Of a stretch of DNA of 64,000 nucleotides, positions 1 to 38,212 are shown one piece after another. Both the position numbers and the translations under genes were made by a program. This DNA comes from Leisingera daeponensis (GTDB lineage Bacteria > Pseudomonadota > Alphaproteobacteria > Rhodobacterales > Rhodobacteraceae). Positions within the stretch are counted from its first letter, which is position 1. Each line of letters begins with the position of its first letter. The notes under the pieces are model-generated. The model worked only from the letters and a program-made list of their open reading frames with translations, was not told where the DNA came from and made no database searches. The DNA is taken from positions 744,001-808,000 of the forward strand of contig NZ_JAHVJA010000001.1 in assembly GCF_019801465.1 (NCBI RefSeq), read 5' to 3'.

Positions 1-11
1 GCCCCCTGTAG

Positions 12-400
12 GGGCTTTGTTGCACAAAACCCGCGAGGGATTCATGTCGTGAATCCAGAGCGATAGCAGGGGAGCATGAGCAGTTGGGCCCCGACGAAGT
101 ACAATGCCAGGAACTGGCCTTCGTATAACGCAGCATTGAAGCAGCGCGGATCGCTGTCGATTTGGTTTGACCCAGAGATGATCTGGGAGCCACCACCGAG
201 CGGCACGCGAGGTCGCCAGCAGCGTTTCAGCGGCTCTGCGGTCCAGACTTGCCTGACGCTGAAAGTGCTGTTCGGGATGCCGCTTCGGCAAACGACCGGG
301 TTCGTGCAAAGCCTTCTGCGGCTGGTTGGACTGGACTGGACAGAGCCCGACTATAGCCCCCCGTGCCGCCGCCGGAAAACGCTGAACGTGAGCCGGCCAT
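12..400 (+). mobile_element. IS5-family insertion sequence, 5' end only
   Basis: A terminal-inverted-repeat-like sequence (GGGGCTTTGTTGCACAAA, 12-29) resembles the ends of IS5-group elements common in Rhodobacteraceae. It is followed about 45 bp later by the start of a DDE transposase. Similarity to the transposase stops near 400 and no right-hand end is present, so this is a truncated copy. The right boundary is estimated from where the protein stops looking like a transposase. Confidence 0.75.
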
Positions 401-483
401 ACGGCCCGAACCACCTAAGCAAGTTCGCGCGCGACGAGGCAAAGGTCGCCCTCGCCAAGCTGGAGAAGGAGGAAGGTAAGTGA
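76..483 (+). pseudogene. Truncated IS5-type transposase fused to the tail of another gene
   Basis: About the first 108 codons read like the N-terminus of an IS5-group transposase (RNWPSYNAAL, SIWFDPEM, CLTLKVLFGM, LRQTTGFVQSLL, GLDWTEPDYS). The expected RRRKTLNVS-PY segment is then followed by unrelated sequence ending KVALAKLEKEEGK. The catalytic DDE region is missing, so no transposition activity is expected. The unrelated tail has its stop overlapping the GTG of the AlpA gene, as in a translationally coupled operon. I infer that the IS deleted the front of a gene lying just upstream of alpA. What that gene was cannot be told from about 25 residues. Confidence 0.75.
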
Positions 484-665
484 CGGACAACACATTGCCG
501 CTGCTGCTGCGCGACACCCAGGTGGCGCATCTTCTGGGAATCGGGCGCACAACCGTGTGGAACCGAGCCAATTCCGGCAAGCTTCCGAAGCCGATCAAAT
601 GGGAGGGCGTGACCGTCTGGCGCCGCACCGAGATCGAGAAGTTTGTTGAAGAGCTGGCGGGCTAA
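480..665 (+). CDS. AlpA-family DNA-binding regulator (excisionase-like)
   Basis: A 61-aa protein with a MerR/AlpA-type winged helix: LLRDTQVAHLLGIGRTTVWN, then SGKLPKPIKW and an R-x-E-I-E-K-F-V end. AlpA proteins activate integrase expression or act as excisionases in phage-like elements. The GTG start at 480 overlaps the upstream stop and follows a strong AAGGAGG. It lies outside the left att core of the prophage, next to a tRNA-Leu 3' fragment. It therefore probably belonged to an earlier element at the same tRNA, not to the prophage, which has its own excisionase-like gene at 36824. Confidence 0.8.
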   Translation: MTDNTLPLLLRDTQVAHLLGIGRTTVWNRANSGKLPKPIKWEGVTVWRRTEIEKFVEELAG

Positions 666-728
666 CTGGCGGGCTGAGAGCGGCCAACCAATCGCACCCC
701 TTAAAAAACAGCGGCGTGCAGAAAAAGA

Positions 729-781
729 TGGTGCGGGTGAAGGGACTTGAACCCCCACGCCTTACGGCGCCAGAACCTAAA
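729..781 (-). repeat. tRNA-Leu 3'-half remnant, left attachment site (attL)
   Basis: Read on the minus strand, this gives the 3' half of a tRNA-Leu, from the anticodon loop through the T arm to an encoded CCA. It matches the intact tRNA-Leu at 38128-38212 except for a few bases in the variable and T arms. The T-stem changes still allow a 5-bp stem, so the copy was once functional sequence. Identity stops after 781, as expected at a crossover point in the anticodon loop. Confidence 0.85.
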
Positions 782-934
782 ACTAATGAAGTTTCATTGT
801 TTTCAGAGCGCTTAACGAGAAAAATTTACAGGACATTGCCAGAACGAAACATGAAACCGTAAAACAGGGTCAACGGCGCCACTTTGGGCCTATGTTGAGC
901 CCACCTCTACTTGCGCAGCGGGATACATACACAA

Positions 935-1180
935 ATGAAGGCAAGAGATTACCCGTTGCCAGTAGTCGAGATAGCCTGCGACCACTGTGGACGTTACGGG
1001 AAGTACCGAAAGAGCAGATTCATTGACCTGGTCGGTGAACACACAGAACTGCCTCAAGCTCTTTCGATCATCGCCGCCGATTGCCCTGAAGATCGAGTTT
1101 CGCCCGACAACATGCGCGGGCGCTGCCGCCCTTTCTATGCGCAGAACTGGTGGGGCGCTGCCAGTAAAGAGCCGAGCTAA
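935..1180 (+). CDS. Small zinc-ribbon-like hypothetical protein
   Basis: An 81-aa protein not identified by name. It has a CDHCGR knuckle near residue 13 and two more cysteines (ADCPED and RGRCRPFY), giving a possible four-cysteine zinc site. I chose the ATG at 935 over the upstream TTG at 911 because the conserved-looking part begins with MKARDYPLPVVEIACDHC. Proteins of this look are common near replication and mobile genes in alphaproteobacteria, but I cannot give a function. It is the first gene inside the left end of the prophage. Confidence 0.6.
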   Translation: MKARDYPLPVVEIACDHCGRYGKYRKSRFIDLVGEHTELPQALSIIAADCPEDRVSPDNMRGRCRPFYAQNWWGAASKEPS

Positions 1181-1201
1181 CCCCATCTCTCCCTTTCCAG
1201 A

Positions 1202-1402
1202 CTACCCCGGGAGAGGCGCCAGCCCCCGCAACGCTTTGGTCATATCGAGGTAGCCGGTATAGCCATACTCGGCGTGCATCTGTTCATACCATGCCGCCCA
1301 GGGTTCCCGCCTATCTTCGGGGAAGACATCGAACCATGAGCCTTTTCGAACGCTAACCTGGCCATCAGGCAGCCGCTCAACCTTTATCTTGCTGACGCTC
1401 AT
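1202..1402 (-). CDS. Hypothetical small protein
   Basis: A 66-aa acidic/aromatic protein with a regular composition (KIKVERLPDGQVSVRKGSWFDVFPEDRREPW...). It starts with ATG at 1402 and stops 22 bp from the convergent gene ending at 1180. No known domain is recognised. It sits in the AT-richer cargo block at the left end of the prophage. Confidence 0.5.
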   Translation of the reverse strand: MSVSKIKVERLPDGQVSVRKGSWFDVFPEDRREPWAAWYEQMHAEYGYTGYLDMTKALRGLAPLPG

Positions 1403-1781
1403 CGCCTCTGCTCTTACTTGGACCGCTCGGATTATTCAGCTATAGCCTCCACATCCCAATCGCACCAGAGCGGGAAGGAACGGCCCGCAGCGCTCACCCC
1501 ATCTGAGCGCTGCGGGCCGTTCATCCTAGGCACTAGCAACCGTTACGCCGGACTCTTGCGGCCGTCCGCTGCGTGTGCGGCCTCGACAAAGTTCCACGGC
1601 TGCTTCGCTGCAAAAGCGCCCTTTGCAAAGTCGGGGTGATCGGGCACGATCTCCGGCCGGACGCGGCCCACAGCGGCCTTTTGTCGATTGTACAATATGC
1701 TGTGATCGCATCCGGCTTTGCGGACATTGGCTTCCGTGATCAGTGCTTCTATCATCTGCGGCAAGCCAAAGAGGTATTCAG
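1403..1781. other. Intergenic stretch with a long perfect hairpin and a doubtful minus-strand ORF
   Basis: A perfect inverted repeat (arms 1478-1496 and 1504-1522, 19 bp each, 7-nt loop) lies here. Its arms are G+C rich but it has no T-run on either side, so it is not a classical intrinsic terminator. A minus-strand frame at 1543-1755 (MIEALITEANVRKAGCDHS...) reads like protein for about 70 codons but has no recognised relative. I leave it unannotated as a gene. Confidence 0.5.
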
Positions 1782-2048
1782 ATGGAACGAGAACCCAATC
1801 TTGTCATTTCCAGCGCTTCGCAGCGCATTGTTGAGGATGGGATGCCATTCAAGGTGGACATCTACAAGCTCGAAGGCGGGGACGGTTGGTCGCTGGAAGT
1901 TGTGACAGAAGACGGGACATCCATTGTGTGGGACGATCTCTTTGAAGACGACCGAGCCGCCTTCGAAGAGGCAATTAGTACCATTCGCAACGAAGGCGCA
2001 GTCGCATTTTCGAACGGTGGTTCAAACGTCGTCCCGTTTAAGAAGTAG
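1782..2048 (+). CDS. Hypothetical acidic small protein
   Basis: An 88-aa acidic protein. The ATG at 1782 follows an AGAGG-like ribosome site and is preferred over the upstream in-frame start at 1743. The middle (FKVDIYKLEGGDGWSLEVVTE, then a VWDD-LFEDD segment) suggests a small beta-rich fold. The C-terminus VVPFKK is typical of small cytoplasmic proteins. No function is recognised. It lies about 100 bp upstream of the PHP-ATPase gene on the same strand and could be co-transcribed with it. Confidence 0.6.
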   Translation: MEREPNLVISSASQRIVEDGMPFKVDIYKLEGGDGWSLEVVTEDGTSIVWDDLFEDDRAAFEEAISTIRNEGAVAFSNGGSNVVPFKK

Positions 2049-2148
2049 ACGAACGACCCCAATCTGCCGTTTGCGCGATGGGATGATTAGAGGTGCGACT
2101 TCTCAATAGCGGGCTTAACTGCCTGAGCGCTCGAAATTCCCCTAATTA

Positions 2149-4998
2149 ATGACAACACCAATTTCAAAAGTTGAGAAACCTTCAATGAATTTTGCATCAT
2201 GGCGAAAATGTGATTTTCAGCTCCATACTCCAAGAGATCCCAACTGGAATGGAAAAAGGCCCATTGGTTTGGGCGATGAAACTGACAATGGCCCAGCAAC
2301 ACAAGCCGATGTAGATGCTGCTCGGCTAGCATGGGCGAATGATTTCATTAGGATTTGTCTAAAGAGAGACCTGCGAGCCGTAGCGATCACTGACCATCAT
2401 GAAATGGTAATGATACCGTACGTGCAGCTGGCTATATCTCAACGGATTTCTGAGGAAGCCAACTTTGACCTATGGCTTTTTCCTGGAATGGAGCTGACCT
2501 GCCGCAATGGTGTGCAATGTTTGATCATTTTTGACGCTGATCTTTCGGATGAGTGGCGCATTGAAGCCCAATCTAAATTAGGGATTACAATACCTTCCTT
2601 GAATGTCAATGGAAAGCAAGGGCCTAAGGTCACGCAACTTGATTTCCCGTATCCTGAAATCTCTAAACGACTTGATGTAGTCCCGGAACTTCAGGGACGA
2701 TATATTGTCCTGCCAAATGTCTCTCAGGGAGGCCAGCACACTGTCTTAACTGAAGGATCCCACGCGGACTTCAAGTCTATGTCTTATGTGGGGGGCTACC
2801 TCGATACAGGGCAGAATATTGAAACGATGAACGGAAAGAATAAGAGGCGCTTATCAGGTGAAGAAGACATCTGGGGAAAACGTTTCGTTTATCCTTTGCC
2901 CACATCAGATGGCCGGTCAGCGGACTTTTCCAAGGTGGGTACAAATAGCTGTTGGATTAAGCTTGCTGCACCTACCGCTGAGGCGATCAGGCAAGCGTTT
3001 TTGGGGCATCGATCTCGCATTTCGATCAAACCACCCCTAACACCTACGCTGAGTGTGAACTTCATTGAGGTCAGCGGGTCGGAAATATTTATTGATCGGC
3101 GGACAGACCTCAGCTCGGAACTGAACTCATTCATCGGCGGGAGAGGTAGTGGAAAAAGCACATTGCTCGAATATGTAGCTTTCGGACTGGGCCGCAGTTG
3201 CTACGATCTACCGAAAGATTCTTATTCTGGGGCAGGCCGACTAAAAGAACTCATATCTCAAACGCTCATCGCAAAAGGAGCAACACTAACCATTGGGGTT
3301 GTTCAAGATGGCGCGGAATTCACAATTCGCCGTAGCGGAGCAAACGCCTACCAGCCCGACATTACTTACCCAGACGGCTCGACCCAAAGGCTGAGCACTC
3401 AAGAGCTCCGAACTCTTTTTCCTTCTGTCGTTTACAGTCAGGGAGAGCTCTCTGAACTTGGAAAACAGGCCGGCAAGCGCACTCATATCTCGGACCTGCT
3501 GCAATTTGTTGACCAAGAATATAAACGTGAAGATGAGCGTCTTAATTCAGAAATAGACGGAGCGAAAACCCGCGTACGACAGGCCGTTCAAGGACTTTCG
3601 TCGGCATGGGCACTAGAAGCCAAGATTAGCAAGTACGCAGCCTCAAAGGCCTCACTAGAACAGCGCATTGCCGCATTGCAAAAGACGCTTCCTGAATTAT
3701 CCGATGCCGACAAAGCAACCGTTGATAAATATAAAAACCTATCCGCTCTCGAGGCCAAGAGACAACAGGCGACGGCCCAAGTGGCTTCTGTCATGGAGGA
3801 CGTTACCCAGCTTTGGCATACTTCCAGAAAGCCCGTAGACCTGAGCTCGGCGTTACCTGAAGCGGCAAAATTTCAGAAGGCATTCGCGGAATTTCACTCC
3901 GCCTTTTCGAGTGGTATCGAAGCGCTTGGAATTGAGCTTGGAAAACACCGCGATGCCATGGCTGAAGGCGGGGCAGATATAGACGGCGCTCTTGAAGCCG
4001 CGAAAGTCGAGCGCGATTTGGCTATGGAAAAACTCACTGAACACCGATCAGCTACGGCCCAGATTTCCAATCTCCAAGTTGAACTTCAAGGGGTTCTCAA
4101 GCAAATTGCTGAACTGTCGGTCACCACCAGTTCAGCTGATGAATGGTTTGAAAAGCTGAAATCGGCGGTTGATGATTTGAAACATACTGTCGAACTCAAG
4201 GGCGGCAAGACGAGAGAATGGGCCGACAAGATCGAGACATTATCTGGCAAAAGGATAGAGGCCCAGCTGAAGGCCGACGCAAACTGGTCCGGCATTCATG
4301 ACGCTGTAGAGGTTTTAACGGCCAAGGCAGGCATCAAGGAAGCAACGAGAATTCAACGAACGGACGAGTGCTTAGAGAGGTCAGGTGTTTGGTCATCTCT
4401 CGACAGATTGAGGGCTGATGCCCTCGCCGCTCTTCGCTGGAATGTCCTTTCGCAATCTGAAAGCGGAAAGCCACCACAGATGGACGTACTAGCAGAAGCC
4501 ACCGGTGCAACTCCAAGAGCTATTGAACGATGTGTTGAGTTGATGGATGTCCCGCGTGTTGAGGCTATAGCCACCGCGGTTCCAAGCGATGACATCTCTT
4601 TGCTTTACTGTGATGGAGATAGAAAAATATCATTTGAAAAAGCTTCGGAAGGCCAACGCGCAGCGGCACTCTTGTTCATGTTGCTAGAACAGCCGGGTGG
4701 ACCACTTCTGGTCGACCAACCAGAAGGAGACCTCGACAATAAGATTGTGTCGGACCTTGCCGAAAAGCTTCACGATGCCAAAAAGAACAGACAGATCATA
4801 TTTGCGAGCCACAATGCGAACATCGTTGTTAACGGTTCGTCGGAACTTGTTCTTGGCCTAGATGTAAGTCAAAACGCGAAAAGAGATGTCACCTGCGAAG
4901 GGGCAATCGACACAAAAGAGGTCTGCGATAAAATCACAGAAATTATGGAAGGTGGACCGCAAGCGTTTCGCGATAGAAAAGAAAAGTACGGCTACTGA
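2149..4998 (+). CDS. PHP-domain / SMC-like ATPase (TrlF-family-like), candidate anti-phage protein
   Basis: A 949-aa protein in two parts. Residues about 20-300 look like a PHP metallo-phosphoesterase: FQLHTP near 24, AITDHHE near 80 and GMELTC near 113 supply His/Asp/Glu metal ligands. Residues about 310-949 form an ABC/SMC-type ATPase, with Walker A GGRGSGKST at about 330, a long coiled coil at about 450-720, a signature-like SEGQRAA at about 832, Walker B LLVDQPEGDLDN at about 852, and a switch histidine in FASHNAN at about 886. Such PHP-ATPase fusions have been placed among biological-conflict systems. A nuclease or phosphatase gated by the ATPase is inference. The gene is AT-richer than the prophage core, and it sits upstream of a restriction-modification pair. 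No obvious partner gene is present, so it may act alone. Confidence 0.85.
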   Translation: MTTPISKVEKPSMNFASWRKCDFQLHTPRDPNWNGKRPIGLGDETDNGPATQADVDAARLAWANDFIRICLKRDLRAVAITDHHEMVMIPYVQLAISQRISEEANFDLWLFPGMELTCRNGVQCLIIFDADLSDEWRIEAQSKLGITIPSLNVNGKQGPKVTQLDFPYPEISKRLDVVPELQGRYIVLPNVSQGGQHTVLTEGSHADFKSMSYVGGYLDTGQNIETMNGKNKRRLSGEEDIWGKRFVYPLPTSDGRSADFSKVGTNSCWIKLAAPTAEAIRQAFLGHRSRISIKPPLTPTLSVNFIEVSGSEIFIDRRTDLSSELNSFIGGRGSGKSTLLEYVAFGLGRSCYDLPKDSYSGAGRLKELISQTLIAKGATLTIGVVQDGAEFTIRRSGANAYQPDITYPDGSTQRLSTQELRTLFPSVVYSQGELSELGKQAGKRTHISDLLQFVDQEYKREDERLNSEIDGAKTRVRQAVQGLSSAWALEAKISKYAASKASLEQRIAALQKTLPELSDADKATVDKYKNLSALEAKRQQATAQVASVMEDVTQLWHTSRKPVDLSSALPEAAKFQKAFAEFHSAFSSGIEALGIELGKHRDAMAEGGADIDGALEAAKVERDLAMEKLTEHRSATAQISNLQVELQGVLKQIAELSVTTSSADEWFEKLKSAVDDLKHTVELKGGKTREWADKIETLSGKRIEAQLKADANWSGIHDAVEVLTAKAGIKEATRIQRTDECLERSGVWSSLDRLRADALAALRWNVLSQSESGKPPQMDVLAEATGATPRAIERCVELMDVPRVEAIATAVPSDDISLLYCDGDRKISFEKASEGQRAAALLFMLLEQPGGPLLVDQPEGDLDNKIVSDLAEKLHDAKKNRQIIFASHNANIVVNGSSELVLGLDVSQNAKRDVTCEGAIDTKEVCDKITEIMEGGPQAFRDRKEKYGY

Positions 4999-5752
4999 AT
5001 ATGCTCTTTTTACCCGAGTAGATCTCGACACATTCTCCTGAAAATGTGCCGACCGCTCGACAGCGGTCTCTCGGGCTATTTCAAGGTCCGCTCTAGCGGC
5101 GCCATCAAATCCATGTTGCAAAGCGGAGAACGGTCGCTTACCCGCCCGACCTTGCGGGGCCGTCGGGCGCGAGCGGCGGTAGCGATCCCGTCCGCTTTAG
5201 GCTGAAACCGTCGGCTACACTCGCGGCGCCCCATGGTCGCGGCGATGTCAGCTGTTTGCTCTAAACCGCCATGCGGCAGTACAGCACCGAGCTCCAGCCT
5301 GCCCCAGGCCAGTTGAGATCGGCTTAAGCTAGCTCGAAGCCGACCTCCGGCTTGCCGCAAAGCCACGACGGATTCGTAAGCAGTCGGAGCGGAGGGCGGG
5401 AGTTTGCTGTACTCACACTGAATAAACGTCACTTTTCGAATAGCGACCGTTCACAACATAACAATCCTTGTTGCGTTTGAAGACACTCAGGGAACACCCG
5501 AAGATGAAGAATTCGAGCAACTTGTCGCAGCGCATTTCTTTCATTATATCACGCAGACCAGCGTTGCCCTGCAACAGGCTGATCGCCTGCTAGGTCGGGC
5601 TGCATTCAGACGCGGCAAGGCGGTGCCTAGACCGCCATCGGTGTAGGGCAGTAAAAGAGTAGCTTCCAACGAACTTCGATAGTCTGATTCTGCGATCAAC
5701 ATTCGGATATTTTTTGCCTACAAAGATGAACCAAAGGTAACAGGGGCACGAT
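4999..5752. other. Non-coding stretch between the PHP-ATPase and the methyltransferase
   Basis: A 7-bp hairpin (5051-5068) about 50 bp after the ATPase stop could end its transcript. Positions about 5090-5400 are clearly richer in G+C than the two flanking genes and show no convincing gene. A 75-codon open frame at 5422-5646 (AFEDTQGTPEDEEFEQLVAAHFFHYITQ...) reads like protein but has no ATG/GTG/TTG start, and may be the tail of a decayed gene. The upstream region of the methyltransferase (about 5650-5752) is AT rich and probably holds its promoter. Confidence 0.5.
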
Positions 5753-7084
5753 ATGCGACCAATCGGTATCGACTTATTTGCAGGGGCGGGGGGCTTAAGC
5801 CTTGGGTTCGAGCAGGCCGGCTTCGATGTGAAGGCGGCGGTTGAGATCGACCCCGTACACTGCGCTGTCCACGAATTTAACTTCCCTGCCACGACAGTGA
5901 TTCCAGCGTCGGTCGCAGACCTCTCTGGCAACGAAATCAAGCAGCGGGCAGGTTTGGTTGGCATGCAGATTGATTGTGTCTTTGGCGGAGCGCCTTGCCA
6001 GGGCTTTTCTATGATAGGCCAGCGAGTGCTCGACGACCCTAGAAACAAGTTGGTCTTGGAGTTTGTTCGCCTTGTGCGTGAGTTAGATGCTGAAAGTTTC
6101 GTGTTTGAAAACGTCAAAGGTCTGACAATTGGCAAACACAAAGCATTCTTAAAAGAGCTGGTAAACGCATTCGATGATGCAGGGTATGAATGCCGCTTGC
6201 CTTGGAAGGTGTTAAATGCAGCTCACTTTGGCACCCCGCAGTCGCGTGAGCGCTTTATTCTTATGGGCGTCAAGAAGGGCAATACTCTTCCTGACTATCC
6301 GGCGCCGAAAACAAATATTTCGGGAAGACCAAAACTCTACCCGGACCTGGAATTCGGGCCATCATGTGCTGATGCACTCGGGGATCTACCTGACGCAGAC
6401 ACCTTTGAGACTCTAAACGCAAGCGACGCAGTAAAAACAACTCGGTTTGGCAAGCCGTCTGACTACGCGGCCGAGCTGCGTTGCCTCAAAAACGACTCAT
6501 GGCATTATGGGTATCCGAGGCAATGGTTGCCCAATGTCCTCACCTCCAGCGCGCGAACAGTACACACCGAGATATCTAAGAGGCGGTTTCGTGAAACTGA
6601 GGAGGGAACAGTTGAGCCTATCAGCCGCTTTTTCCGGCTCCCGAGCTGGGGTGTTTCGAATACACTGCGGGCCGGAACTGATGGGGCGCGAGGGGCATTC
6701 ACAAGTCCGCGTCCAATCCACTATCTCTACGCACGCTGCATAACGGTACGTGAAATGGCACGGCTGCACGGGTTCCCCGACTGGTTCAGGTTTAACGCGA
6801 CAAAGTGGCACGGAGCGAGACAGATCGGAAATTCAGTTCCCCCGCCATTGGCCATGGCAATCGCAGCCAAAGTGATTGAAGCTCTTGGCGCAACGCCATC
6901 GAGACCTGAAGAGGATATTCCTCTTGGCGATCCTAGACTATTGACACTCGATCTTTCTCAGGCGTCGCGCCACTTTGGGGTCAAGGCACCACAGAGCAAA
7001 CGAGATCGGAAGAGTGGTGCTACGAAACGAAAACAGGAAGAGATCGAAGAAGCACTCAACTCGGCGAGGACGGCTCATGGCTAA
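5753..7084 (+). CDS. DNA (cytosine-5-)-methyltransferase of a type II system
   Basis: A 443-aa C5 methyltransferase. Motif I is DLFAGAGGLSLGFEQAGF (residues 7-24). Motif IV is GGAPCQGFS with the catalytic Cys82. Motif VI is FENVKG (118-123), motif VIII is QSRERF (163-168), and motif X is QIGNSVPPPLA near 362. It transfers a methyl group from SAM to cytosine C5 at a specific site. The variable region between motifs VIII and X, which would set the target sequence, has no relative I can name. The stop overlaps the ATG of the next gene by 8 nt, so the two are translationally coupled. This gene pair and low G+C are typical of a transferred type II restriction-modification system. Confidence 0.93.
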   Translation: MRPIGIDLFAGAGGLSLGFEQAGFDVKAAVEIDPVHCAVHEFNFPATTVIPASVADLSGNEIKQRAGLVGMQIDCVFGGAPCQGFSMIGQRVLDDPRNKLVLEFVRLVRELDAESFVFENVKGLTIGKHKAFLKELVNAFDDAGYECRLPWKVLNAAHFGTPQSRERFILMGVKKGNTLPDYPAPKTNISGRPKLYPDLEFGPSCADALGDLPDADTFETLNASDAVKTTRFGKPSDYAAELRCLKNDSWHYGYPRQWLPNVLTSSARTVHTEISKRRFRETEEGTVEPISRFFRLPSWGVSNTLRAGTDGARGAFTSPRPIHYLYARCITVREMARLHGFPDWFRFNATKWHGARQIGNSVPPPLAMAIAAKVIEALGATPSRPEEDIPLGDPRLLTLDLSQASRHFGVKAPQSKRDRKSGATKRKQEEIEEALNSARTAHG

Positions 7085-7865
7085 AATCGCCAATCGCTAT
7101 GGTGCTCTTATCGAGAAAATCTTCCTTGATCGCTACAGCACTGGACAAACCGAGCTCCACTTTGCACGAACGGATATTGAAGCCGCTGCCGAAGCGTTAA
7201 ACATCAAGCTACCGAAGAACTTGGGGGATGTGCTGTATTCGTTTAGGTTTAGGGTCGCTTTGCCTGAGAGTATTCTTGAGACCCAACCTGCTGGTATGGA
7301 GTGGGTAATCGAGCTTGCTGGGAAGGCTGCCTACAGATTTCGCCTAGTCAAATTCAATCGTGTCCTACCTCGTGAAGACCTTATTCGGATCGATATTCCT
7401 GATGCAACTCCAGAGTTGATCCGTGCCTATGCGCTCGATGATGAGCAGGCCCTTTTGGCTATCGTTCGTTACAATCGGTTGATCGACACATTCCTAGGGC
7501 TCACGACGTACAGTTTGCAAAATCACCTTCGAACGACCGTGAAAGGGATTGGGCAGATAGAGATTGATGAGCTCTATGTCGGGCTCGACAAGCGTGGCTG
7601 CCACTACGTTATTCCAGTTCAGGCCAAGGGTGGGAAAGATCAGATTGGTATCGTTCAAATCTCCCAAGATATCCGCTTTGTTGAGGATAAGTTTCCGGGA
7701 ATGCGATGCCGTGCGATCGCCGCACAATTCATGGAAGACCAAATTATTGCGCTATTTGAGCTTACGCTTCAGGACGACGAGATCAAGGTCGTCGAGGAGC
7801 GACACTACCGACTTGTCCCCGCGAAAGAGCTCGATCAAGCGACTATAAGAGACTACCGCGACTAA
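7077..7865 (+). CDS. Probable type II restriction endonuclease (PD-(D/E)xK-like)
   Basis: A 262-aa protein coupled to the C5 methyltransferase by an 8-nt overlap. A likely catalytic core is IEIDELYVG (161-169), then about 12 residues, then IPVQAKGG (179-186). This fits E/D-(x)n-(Q/E)-x-K of PD-(D/E)xK nucleases, with Q182 in the position often held by Glu. The rest (RYNRLIDTFL, KFPGMRCRAIAAQF) has no motif I can name, as is usual for restriction enzymes. It is assigned from context plus this motif. The ATG at 7077 is chosen because the longer frame from 6975 runs inside the methyltransferase gene. Confidence 0.7.
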   Translation: MAKIANRYGALIEKIFLDRYSTGQTELHFARTDIEAAAEALNIKLPKNLGDVLYSFRFRVALPESILETQPAGMEWVIELAGKAAYRFRLVKFNRVLPREDLIRIDIPDATPELIRAYALDDEQALLAIVRYNRLIDTFLGLTTYSLQNHLRTTVKGIGQIEIDELYVGLDKRGCHYVIPVQAKGGKDQIGIVQISQDIRFVEDKFPGMRCRAIAAQFMEDQIIALFELTLQDDEIKVVEERHYRLVPAKELDQATIRDYRD

Positions 7866-8308
7866 AAGCCGCCGCGGGGCCAAATGAAAAAAGTGATCTT
7901 TTACCTCGGCCTGGAAGTACGCCGCACGTTTGTTTTTGAACAAGCGGTAAAAGTCCGGTCCGGTGCAGTTGTGCTGCGGTGCTGTTCCAAGTTGCCAAGG
8001 GCTGGCCTAAAACGCTGTTCGCAAAGGCATCTTGGAGCGGCGAGTACCGCTATTCCAAGTCGGACTATGCTTTCAACCCATTCGACAACAGCGAAGAAGT
8101 AGCGACCTTTTGAAGCGCCATGCTGGAGGAGCTTGGCGTTGAAGCAGCGGCGGCCGCTATGGAGACGGCACGCGACCTGCGGAAGCAAGCAGACGAGAAA
8201 GCCGCACAAGCCGTTTCCGGCTGGGCCTAACAATCCAGAAACCGCCCGGTCGCCCAGGACGACACCCCCGAGCAAACCGGGGCTTTCATGTTTTAGATGT
8301 GACCTGCC
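7866..8308 (+). other. Decayed coding remnant between cargo and lysis genes
   Basis: No intact gene is seen. One frame reads as protein for about 45 codons (LFQVAKGWPKTLFAKASWSG..., about 7977-8113), reaches a TGA after EEVATF, then continues for about 35 codons (MLEELGVEAAAAAMETARDL...) to a TAA near 8230. This suggests a degraded gene or two minigenes. A short hairpin (8266-8282) followed by CTTTCATGTTTT could be a weak + strand terminator separating the cargo from the convergent phage late operon. Confidence 0.45.
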
Positions 8309-36823: not shown

Positions 36824-37027
36824 GTGGCTGCAGCAAACCAAATCCTAGCACGCGAAAGCACGGCAGCTAAGATGCTGGATATGCCGCTCAAGGAATTCCG
36901 CGCCCTGGTGGCAGCGGGCAGCCTGCCCAAGCCGGTCAAGATCGGCGGCAAGGTTGAGCGCTGGTCCGTGAAACAGCTTGAGGCAATCAGCTCAGGCACC
37001 ATGCTAAGCGAAGATTTCGAATGGTAA
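36824..37027 (+). CDS. Excisionase / AlpA-like DNA-binding protein
   Basis: A 67-aa winged-helix protein with a GTG start at 36824 behind CCAGGAGACAG. The AlpA/excisionase-type pattern is ARESTAAKMLDMPLKEFRAL, then GSLPKPVKIGGKVERWSV. Its last 7 nt overlap the integrase start, so it is coupled to it. It would direct excision of the prophage. Confidence 0.8.
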   Translation: MAAANQILARESTAAKMLDMPLKEFRALVAAGSLPKPVKIGGKVERWSVKQLEAISSGTMLSEDFEW

Positions 37028-38031
37028 AGAAGAACTCAAAACCCTATCTGGCCCGGATCCCGCGCAGCGGAAAGGACTACTGGTATTTTCGAAAGGGCAA
37101 AACCCTGATTCGCCTGCCCGACGATCCCGACAGCGAGGAATTTGACCGGGAATACTGGGCCATCAGGTCCGGCCAGCACAAGGCGACGGTTAAAACCACC
37201 TTTGAGGCACTGATCACAAGCTACTACCAGACGCCGCGCTTCAGGGGATTGAAGGCAAGCACCAAGGCAGAGTACCGCCGAACGCTGGAACTGCTCCGTG
37301 AAAAGAACGGGCCTAAGGACTTCACCAAACTGCGCCGCAAACACGTTATCGCAGCGCGGGACAAGTATGCAGACCAATGGCGCAAGGCGAATGCCATGGT
37401 CGAACAGTTGTCGATTCTGGCCCGTCACGCCATTGATCTGGAATGGATCACCGCCAACCCTGCCCAGGGCGTCGAAAAGCTGAAGGGCGGCAGCTATGAA
37501 GCTTGGCCGGAGACAAAGCTGGCCGCATATGAGCGCTATTGTGAACAGCACGGGCTGACGATTGAGCGCGCGATTTATGAGCTGTGCATCGGCACCGGAC
37601 AGCGCATTGGTGATGTGGTCGCCATGGAATGGGCCCACTTCCTGGGCGGCTACATGGACGTTGTGCAGGAGAAGACCGGCGCCCGGCTTTCGATCTTCTG
37701 CCCGGATCGCCTCCAGACTTTCCTGGAGCGTTTGCCGCGCAACGGAAAACACATCCTGGCAAAGAACCTGACGCAGCACATCAGCAAACGGCGCGCTCAG
37801 AGCCTTGTGGCAGAAGTCCGCAAAAAGATCGAAGCCCAGGACTTTGTTATCCACGGCTGGCGCTACTCCGCCGCGAAAGAGCTGGCAGAGGCTGGCTGCT
37901 CAGACACAGAAATCCAGTCTGTGACCGGCCACAAATCGCTAGAAATGGTCAAGAAGTACCGCCAGCAGGCAAGGCAAAAACAGCTTTCAAAGACAGCCCA
38001 GCTGCGCCGGAACAGAACAAAAACAGAATAA
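37021..38031 (+). CDS. int: Tyrosine recombinase (phage integrase)
   Basis: A 336-aa tyrosine recombinase. An N-terminal arm-binding part (about 1-60) and core-binding SAM-like domain (about 60-150) precede the catalytic domain. The active site has R195 in GTGQRIGDVV, H278-x-x-R281 in HGWRYSAA, H304 in TGHKSLEM and Y313 in MVKKYR. The gene ends 97 bp from the tRNA-Leu attachment site and is coupled to the excisionase-like gene. It catalyses insertion into, and excision from, tRNA-Leu. Confidence 0.95.
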   Translation: MVKKNSKPYLARIPRSGKDYWYFRKGKTLIRLPDDPDSEEFDREYWAIRSGQHKATVKTTFEALITSYYQTPRFRGLKASTKAEYRRTLELLREKNGPKDFTKLRRKHVIAARDKYADQWRKANAMVEQLSILARHAIDLEWITANPAQGVEKLKGGSYEAWPETKLAAYERYCEQHGLTIERAIYELCIGTGQRIGDVVAMEWAHFLGGYMDVVQEKTGARLSIFCPDRLQTFLERLPRNGKHILAKNLTQHISKRRAQSLVAEVRKKIEAQDFVIHGWRYSAAKELAEAGCSDTEIQSVTGHKSLEMVKKYRQQARQKQLSKTAQLRRNRTKTE

Positions 38032-38127
38032 GAACAGATTCCAGAGTGTAAAACAAAGTGTAAAACACTCTGGATCACAGGCGCAGCACCACCCTGCAAT
38101 TAAGCGTATTTCTCTTTACAATCAGAA

Positions 38128-38212
38128 TGGTGCGGGTGAGAGGACTTGAACCTCCACGCCTTGCGGCGCCAGAACCTAAATCTGGTGCGTCTACCAATTC
38201 CGCCACACCCGC
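38128..38212 (-). tRNA. tRNA-Leu (anticodon UAG)
   Basis: An 85-nt cloverleaf on the minus strand. The acceptor stem pairs GCGGGTG (38206-38212) with CACCCGC and ends A-CCA, which is encoded. The anticodon loop TTTAGGT lies between CCAGA and TCTGG, giving UAG, a leucine codon reader. It has a long variable arm. Its 3' half was supplied by the prophage and differs slightly from the copy left at 729-781. Confidence 0.97.
38164..38180. repeat. Right attachment core (attR)
   Basis: CGGCGCCAGAACCTAAA, identical to 765-781. It covers the anticodon-loop side of tRNA-Leu, next to the integrase gene. The two copies are 37,399 bp apart. Confidence 0.85.

Follow-up and report, generated by a model that had tools for sequence, protein, structure and literature searches.

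A prophage-borne Ppl/TrlF-type protein of Leisingera daeponensis whose PHP site is rebuilt or silenced

What does a protein that joins a PHP-like region to a Rad50/SMC-like ATPase do when half of the ligand positions of its PHP site have been replaced? The question arises from a gene at positions 2149–4998 of a 64,000-nucleotide stretch of the Leisingera daeponensis genome (contig NZ_JAHVJA010000001.1, positions 744,001 to 808,000; hereafter, the window), in which an uninterrupted open reading frame (ORF) encodes a 949-residue protein with the PHP-like region at its N-terminus. A preliminary description had regarded it as a PHP phosphoesterase fused to an SMC-like ATPase. The architecture is already known, since it is that of Ppl and TrlF, and the protein is a variant of this type whose PHP site is either rebuilt or silenced, carried as prophage cargo. 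We give a probability of roughly 0.4 to the reading that it is a stand-alone, prophage-borne anti-phage protein, Ppl-like in outline, in which an ATP-held sensor would govern a rebuilt PHP effector. Below, WIN designates the protein of the window, L numbers the loci of relatives and G numbers genomes; coordinates are collected in Table 1.

The PHP-like site and its replaced ligands

The best NCBIfam match of the protein is NF045780 (TrlF family AAA-like ATPase), which extends over residues 15–948 and, with 453.5 bits against a curated cut-off of 350, places it in the TrlF family. The Ppl_antiphage model (NF042955) gives 173.7 bits, well under its curated cut-off of 1000, so that the protein falls outside it, and the best PADLOC model is Ppl. 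E. coli Ppl is itself taken by NF045780 (477.4 bits), and we note that this NCBIfam 'equivalog' model, named TrlF, covers more than one active-site class. Comparison with the nearest relative (L004, Poseidonocella pacifica, 89% identical) gives a ratio of nonsynonymous to synonymous substitution rates (dN/dS) of 0.096 over the whole gene, with 0.101 in residues 1–300 and 0.024 in residues 791–949, indicating that the gene is under purifying selection. A chance ORF is ruled out by the match to the whole family model and by a dN/dS close to 0.1. The ORF, with its PHP-like region and its ATPase, is thus real, its frame being open, its match lying above the TrlF cut-off over nearly the entire length, and its sequence bearing the mark of selection.

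At the eight ligand positions (24, 26, 83, 115, 123, 190, 254 and 256), E. coli Ppl carries H, H, H, E, H, H, D and H, whereas the protein carries Q, H, H, E, Q, N, D and R. Four of the eight are therefore retained (H26, H83, E115 and D254). It had been claimed that the protein keeps its PHP metal ligands; this is correct for these four residues, but the motif FQLHTP reads Gln-x-His and not His-x-His, and Q123, N190 and R256 are changed as well. Since the ligand claim is half wrong, the term 'phosphoesterase' is unproven for the Gln-x-His clade described below. Position 217, which is Glu in the Ppl clade and Tyr in the protein's own group, depends on the alignment and lies outside the count of eight.

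A PHP-like character of residues ~15–300 is suggested by a profile built on 20 regions of this kind (12 from the protein's own type, 8 from elsewhere), which matched the PDB entries 3e0f (9.9e-5), 7ug9 (2e-4), 2anu (5.3e-4) and 9etk (1.6e-3). Lower matches were the endonuclease PfuEndoQ (0.21) and the phosphatase YwqE (0.26), as well as two unrelated chains at approximately 1. In this search canonical His or Glu residues stand opposite positions 24, 26, 83, 115 and 123; the mapping of positions 190 and 254–256 onto PDB chains rests on weak segments, and their mapping onto Ppl is firmer. Of five relatives, four match Pfam PF02811 with the corresponding region, at values of 2.8e-5 to 0.011 that fall short of its cut-off, and Ppl as the fifth gives a match to PHP_C at 0.036.

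The pattern of replacement was followed across relatives by reducing 108 full-length ORFs from the fetched loci to 94 rows, after removal of 13 at 95% identity and with the partial L031 left out; the broken relatives L021 and L024 were counted only as pieces. In an unrooted quick-search tree built from the ATPase part alone, without the PHP part, a branch with a Shimodaira-Hasegawa-like approximate likelihood ratio test (SH-aLRT) value of 99 separates the 13 rows whose motif I reads Gln-x-His from the remaining rows. The group (WIN, L004, L006, L007, L008, L033, L034, L035, L038, L040, L045, L046 and L138) includes Alphaproteobacteria and a Hymenobacter plasmid, with identities to WIN down to 26%. 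Residues Q24, H26, D30, D82, H83, H84, E115, Q123 and D254 are fixed in all 13 rows; position 190 is Asn in 10 and His in 3, and position 256 is Arg in 12 and Lys in one. The Ppl clade (22 rows) has His at positions 24, 123 and 256 throughout, and Asn at position 84 in 21 rows. The 23 rows with a TDY-type pattern (HH.YE.DH) occupy another part of the tree. Decay of the PHP region in a single lineage was set aside, as the pattern is common to 13 rows on one branch, down to 26% identity. This coordinated, fixed replacement suggests that the PHP site is rebuilt or non-catalytic and under selection, and that it is not decaying; it is neutral with respect to cutting. As a guess, Asp30 could substitute for a further ligand.

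Two loci illustrate other arrangements. In a Vibrio phage (L043, listed under Tectiliviricetes), two adjoining genes at 1343–3959 encode the PHP-like part and the TrlF-like ATPase as separate proteins, in a split form. Contig C2 of G071 (L013 and L030) carries a WIN-type gene approximately 30 kb from one of the TrlF family (686 bits), and both kinds can thus coexist.

The changed site could also mean that the defence role is the same but the PHP-like domain is catalytically dead, serving as a scaffold or a nucleotide-binding lid, while DNA clamping by the ATPase or other nucleases of the cell provide protection. The replacement of four of eight ligand positions is in line with this explanation, as is a third clade of ten rows (L022, L023, L029, L041, L042, L131–L134 and L139), in which motif I is Gln-x-Asn or Gln-x-Ser; both of its His residues are lost there, yet His123, His190 and the ATPase are retained, with position 256 variable. 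ATPase-only relatives that have no fused PHP part also exist (41 ORFs in the fetched loci, for example L049, L058 and L064), many of them on viral contigs. In addition, an excerpt of work on E. coli Pol III describes its PHP domain as structural, with Arg as the commonest replacement at 6 of 9 positions (PMC3666897). However, four ligands are fixed in 13 of 13 rows with the new residues fixed alongside them, and no partner nuclease recurs in the neighbourhoods looked at; a fixed partner nuclease was rejected on the same ground. We regard a dead PHP-like domain as somewhat less likely than the rebuilt, working site of the main reading.

The ATPase half and its Walker B glutamine

In Pfam, the protein matches AAA_23 and AAA_21 above their cut-offs, while SMC_N, with 34.2 bits, stays under its cut-off of 40. 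It carries the Rad50/SMC-like ABC feature set of Walker A, Q-loop, signature, D-loop and switch His, and resembles Rad50/SMC ATPases in these motifs and in its probable coiled coil, differing from them in having DQ instead of DE at Walker B and a PHP-like domain at the N-terminus. The long coiled coil proposed earlier is supported by a Rad50 profile match that covers residues 323–706 and by a weak heptad signal between the ATPase halves, which was reached by 22 of 500 shuffles. The preliminary description had also listed all ABC motifs; the positions that it gave are right within about 2 residues, but the Walker B Asp is followed by Gln and not by the canonical Glu.

This Gln is present in 144 of the 145 distinct relatives whose sequences extend to the C-terminus (43 of them count as ATPase-only under the criterion of that comparison), the exception being L082, which has Glu. 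As a control, 12 of the 43 SMC_N matches in the protein's own genome were read; nine of these 12 loci were readable and gave 11 motifs, all of them DE. Two further ABC-type ORFs in the loci of relatives also have DE at Walker B. Mutants of ABC exporters with Gln in place of this Glu have served to capture ATP-bound states, according to an excerpt of PMC7756269, in which a cited title states that a P-glycoprotein double mutant binds ATP and ADP tightly. The family-wide DQ is a natural change that may favour the holding of ATP. Some other SMC-like families likewise lack the Glu at this place, and slow ATP hydrolysis by the protein is plausible.

Prophage slot and carriage of the relatives

The gene starts 1.4 kb inside the left one of two 57-nt repeats that are 91% alike. 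The repeats enclose 37.4 kb, at whose right end lies a tRNA-Leu, and between them lie genes for the integrase, terminase, major head, tape measure, tail fibre and endolysin. The surrounding block (1743–7865) has a guanine-plus-cytosine content of 51.1%, versus 62.0% in 8286–37000, and is closed by a restriction-modification (R-M) pair whose C5 methyltransferase and type II endonuclease genes overlap by 8 bases, the likely ATG of the latter being at 7077. The prophage, the AT-richer block and the R-M pair with which the gene had been said to travel are hence all borne out.

A sister prophage in a genome of the same genus (L201, G653) has an integrase that is 91% identical in DNA and lies at its own tRNA-Leu. 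The left repeat is similar there and is followed by a related small ORF and then by different AT-rich cargo, which comprises a PD-T4-4_A/AriA-like AAA ATPase, a trypsin-like protein matching PDC-S45 and a resolvase. In a second genome of the genus (L204, G652), the tRNA-Leu and the left and right flanks lie close together and the prophage is absent. The other cargo of L201 and the prophage-free site of L204 indicate, from comparison of the three genomes, that the gene is in an exchangeable prophage cargo slot. Cargo of some element other than the prophage was considered and set aside, since L201 shares the left repeat and the small ORF ahead of its different cargo. We note that the slot of L201, from the left repeat to the lysis end, is equivalent to the TrlF and R-M slot of the window and is likely a defence hotspot.

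Table 1. Features of the window that bear on the 949-residue protein and its prophage.
Feature	Position	Strand	Evidence
TrlF/Ppl-type protein, ATG, 949 residues	2149–4998	+	NF045780 453.5 bits; PADLOC Ppl 4e-40; dN/dS 0.096
PHP-like region, ~residues 15–300	2191–3048	+	20-region profile matches PDB PHP enzymes, best 9.9e-5
Motif I, Q24-L-H26	2218–2226	+	Q24 and H26 13/13 in own group; His24 22/22 in Ppl clade
D82-H83-H84, H83 retained ligand	2392–2400	+	Each 13/13 in own group; position 84 Asn 21/22 in Ppl clade
E115, retained ligand	2491–2493	+	13/13 in own group
Q123 replacing His	2515–2517	+	Gln 13/13 in own group; His 22/22 in Ppl clade
N190 replacing His	2716–2718	+	Asn 10, His 3 of 13 in own group
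D254-G-R256 replacing DxH	2908–2916	+	D254 13/13; position 256 Arg 12, Lys 1; His 22/22 in Ppl clade
Walker A IGGRGSGKS, residues 329–337	3133–3159	+	Motif reading, alignment of relatives
Q-loop Gln431	3439–3441	+	Invariant in 15-row alignment
Probable coiled coil, ~residues 446–790	3484–4518	+	Rad50/SMC profile matches; weak heptad signal
ABC signature S833-E-G-Q836	4645–4656	+	Motif reading, alignment
Walker B LLVDQPE, D856, Gln857 where canonical Glu	4705–4725	+	Gln in 144/145 distinct rows
Switch His888	4810–4812	+	Invariant in two alignments
C5 DNA methyltransferase, type II R-M	5753–7084	+	TIGR00675 180.1 bits; PADLOC MTase_II 1.4e-169
Type II restriction endonuclease	7077–7865	+	PADLOC REase_II 3.9e-135, from residue 39 of longer ORF 6975–7865
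Left att-like repeat, 57 nt	728–784		91% to 38127–38183
Prophage integrase	37021–38031	+	phrog_1 4.5e-35
Right att-like repeat	38127–38183		Within tRNA-Leu 38128–38212 (-)

Among the 13 WIN-type loci, seven (WIN, L007, L008, L034, L035, L045 and L046) have an R-M or methyltransferase gene within ~3.1 kb, the one in L008 being a lone methyltransferase; this is a raw count with no background rate, from neighbours that were partly domain-searched. Of the remaining six, L033 has a RelE/ParE-type toxin and a helix-turn-helix regulator as neighbours, L138 (as read in L167) a TPR protein that carries an AAA/NACHT-like domain, L038 a plasmid repA, L040 a Fic protein, L006 an RTX protein (one neighbour searched) and L004 housekeeping-looking genes. 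Three of the 13 are carried by phage elements, namely the present prophage, the Mu-like L008 and L046 with its tail-sheath genes, and five by plasmids (L033, L034, L035, L038 and L040), while L045, on a viral contig, has an integrase and a repressor nearby. A DUF4238 gene adjoins E. coli Ppl (L032, 4682–5683) and stands one gene away from the Agrobacterium relative (L035, 4408–5400).

Carriage on these plasmids and phage elements, together with the Rad50/SMC-like core, would also suit a DNA repair or maintenance protein of the prophage or of mobile elements, concerned with end processing or competition between elements and not with targeting infecting phages. Such proteins would not be expected to be as rare and patchy as this one, since matches at E <= 1e-60 occur in 20 of 394 genomes of the taxonomic family, and matches of the WIN-type profile at E <= 1e-100 in one of 390 genomes of the order, its own. 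Location of the gene in an exchangeable AT-rich slot also argues against this explanation, which we consider improbable.

Proposed mechanism, its rivals and minor observations

Starting from the family, motifs, replacement pattern, selection and prophage slot established here, we infer a defence role, ATP holding, the sensing of ends, a switch and an activity of the altered site. The defence role is proposed because of the kinship to Ppl and the genomic context. A 2026 review (PMC12904381) describes E. coli Ppl as a single-gene 3'-5' single-stranded DNA exonuclease that requires 3'-OH ends and detects those left by phage homing endonucleases, and that is inhibited by nucleotides bound at both its PHP and its NTPase domain and freed when phages deplete nucleotides. 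Like Ppl (NF042955; Gao-ppl), the protein is encoded by one gene, with a PHP-like N-terminal half and an ABC/SMC-like ATPase, and it shares the DQP Walker B, a C-terminal EGG..AF..R motif and carriage on mobile DNA. Unlike Ppl, to which it is ~20% identical, it has only four of the eight PHP ligand positions.

In the mechanism that we propose, the Rad50/SMC-like half would dimerise around ATP and tend to hold it, its Walker B Glu being naturally Gln. The protein would be kept off while nucleotides are plentiful, and would recognise DNA ends. Infection would expose ends or drain nucleotides, upon which the clamp would open and the PHP-like domain would act on a DNA end or on nucleotides. The rebuilt site would most likely work with fewer metals, with Arg256 in place of one of them. 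By the logic of Ppl, an ATP-holding ATPase would be a fitting nucleotide sensor.

Support for this mechanism comes from the kinship to Ppl, the rebuilt pattern common to 13 rows, the dN/dS of the first 300 residues, the near-invariant Walker B Gln, the precedent of PolX, and the phage and R-M context. Kinship to Ppl, phage carriage, nearness of the R-M genes and the slot of L201 favour the stand-alone anti-phage effector carried as prophage cargo that the preliminary description had put forward, while half of the ligand claim made with it is wrong. More tentatively still, the WIN-type proteins could form a distinct Ppl/TrlF-type clade with a non-canonical PHP centre (Gln, Gln, Asn/His and Arg/Lys instead of four His, alongside fixed His84 and Asp30), a nucleotide-gated clamp that naturally holds ATP and hydrolyses little of it, and a chemistry other than the three-metal PHP reaction.

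Several observations weigh against the anti-phage reading. The PHP-like region of the protein alone gave no Pfam match at E <= 10, and single-sequence PDB searches with the protein and with L045 returned no PHP chain. In an excerpt of PMC10999674, Gao-ppl is inactive against phage P1. Of 50,697 phage records, only seven match the protein, and in none of them does a single place cover 80%. Relatives found only beside housekeeping genes had been named beforehand as a contrary outcome; the relatives overall are not placed in this manner, but the nearest one, L004, does stand alone among housekeeping-looking genes, as read by eye. The family label TrlF is loose, since Ppl also passes NF045780, and the study naming trlF, in the excerpt available (PMC7554251), traced growth restriction to trlG and reported trlF without mutations. 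Lastly, in the PHP domain of E. coli Pol III, 5 of 9 ligands are replaced, with Arg at the last, and no metal is bound (PMC3666897, in excerpt).

The Pol III domain resembles the present one in the partial loss of its ligands and in the Arg at the last position, but differs in having lost 5 of 9, in having Arg at the first position too, and in being joined to a polymerase part with no SMC-like ATPase. Like our protein, T. thermophilus PolX has a Gln as the first residue of its PHP ligand motif, QHHEHHEDH (PMC9226535, in excerpt), and its PHP domain has exonuclease activity according to an excerpt of PMC3666897. However, PolX keeps the remaining positions, whereas the protein also has Q123, N190 and R256. 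By analogy, the precedents for altered PHP sites point both ways, PolX being active and Pol III metal-free.

With respect to TrlF, the protein lies above the NF045780 cut-off over its whole length, but the TDY-type rows are elsewhere in the tree and no trlG neighbour is present. A role in growth control like that of the temperature restriction locus trlRFG of Photorhabdus, instead of phage defence, has in its favour that the family is named after trlF, but is highly improbable, as the Photorhabdus mutations lie in trlG and not in trlF, and as 1–8300 holds no trlG-sized neighbour, its only ORFs of at least 290 residues being the gene itself, the methyltransferase and the endonuclease (the domains of trlG extend to residue 365; PMC7554251, in excerpt).

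Were the ATPase of the family a natural Glu-to-Gln form, this would give a simple account of how Ppl-type proteins could read falling nucleotides, with ATP leaving the clamp and not being burned. Should the PHP site of this clade still work on half of its ligands, its metal chemistry would be new to a nuclease fold; if the site is inactive, 'phosphoesterase' is a misnomer for these proteins, and the work must be done by the ATPase or by something other than the protein. In either case, a single NCBI 'equivalog' model that lumps Ppl with several active-site classes affects the annotation of defence genes. Literature searches for TrlF together with a PHP domain, and for a PHP domain together with SMC and phage defense or with ATPase and anti-phage, returned nothing, and a phmmer search with one Ppl as query found no solved structure recognisable as Ppl from sequence.

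Promoter-like sites number 8 in 1400–8300, versus 4.7 (sd 1.9) in shuffles, with none in the 390 bases upstream of 2149; terminator-like sites number 9 versus 8.2. Further to the left, ~9.3 kb between the common left flank and the left repeat (724–784) are absent from two genomes of the same genus. This segment corresponds to window positions 1–727 and ~8.6 kb further left (L123), includes a transposase fragment at 76–483, and carries at its far end a recurring 15-base piece of the repeat. It is probably a second element that shares the tRNA-Leu with the prophage and stands in tandem with it.

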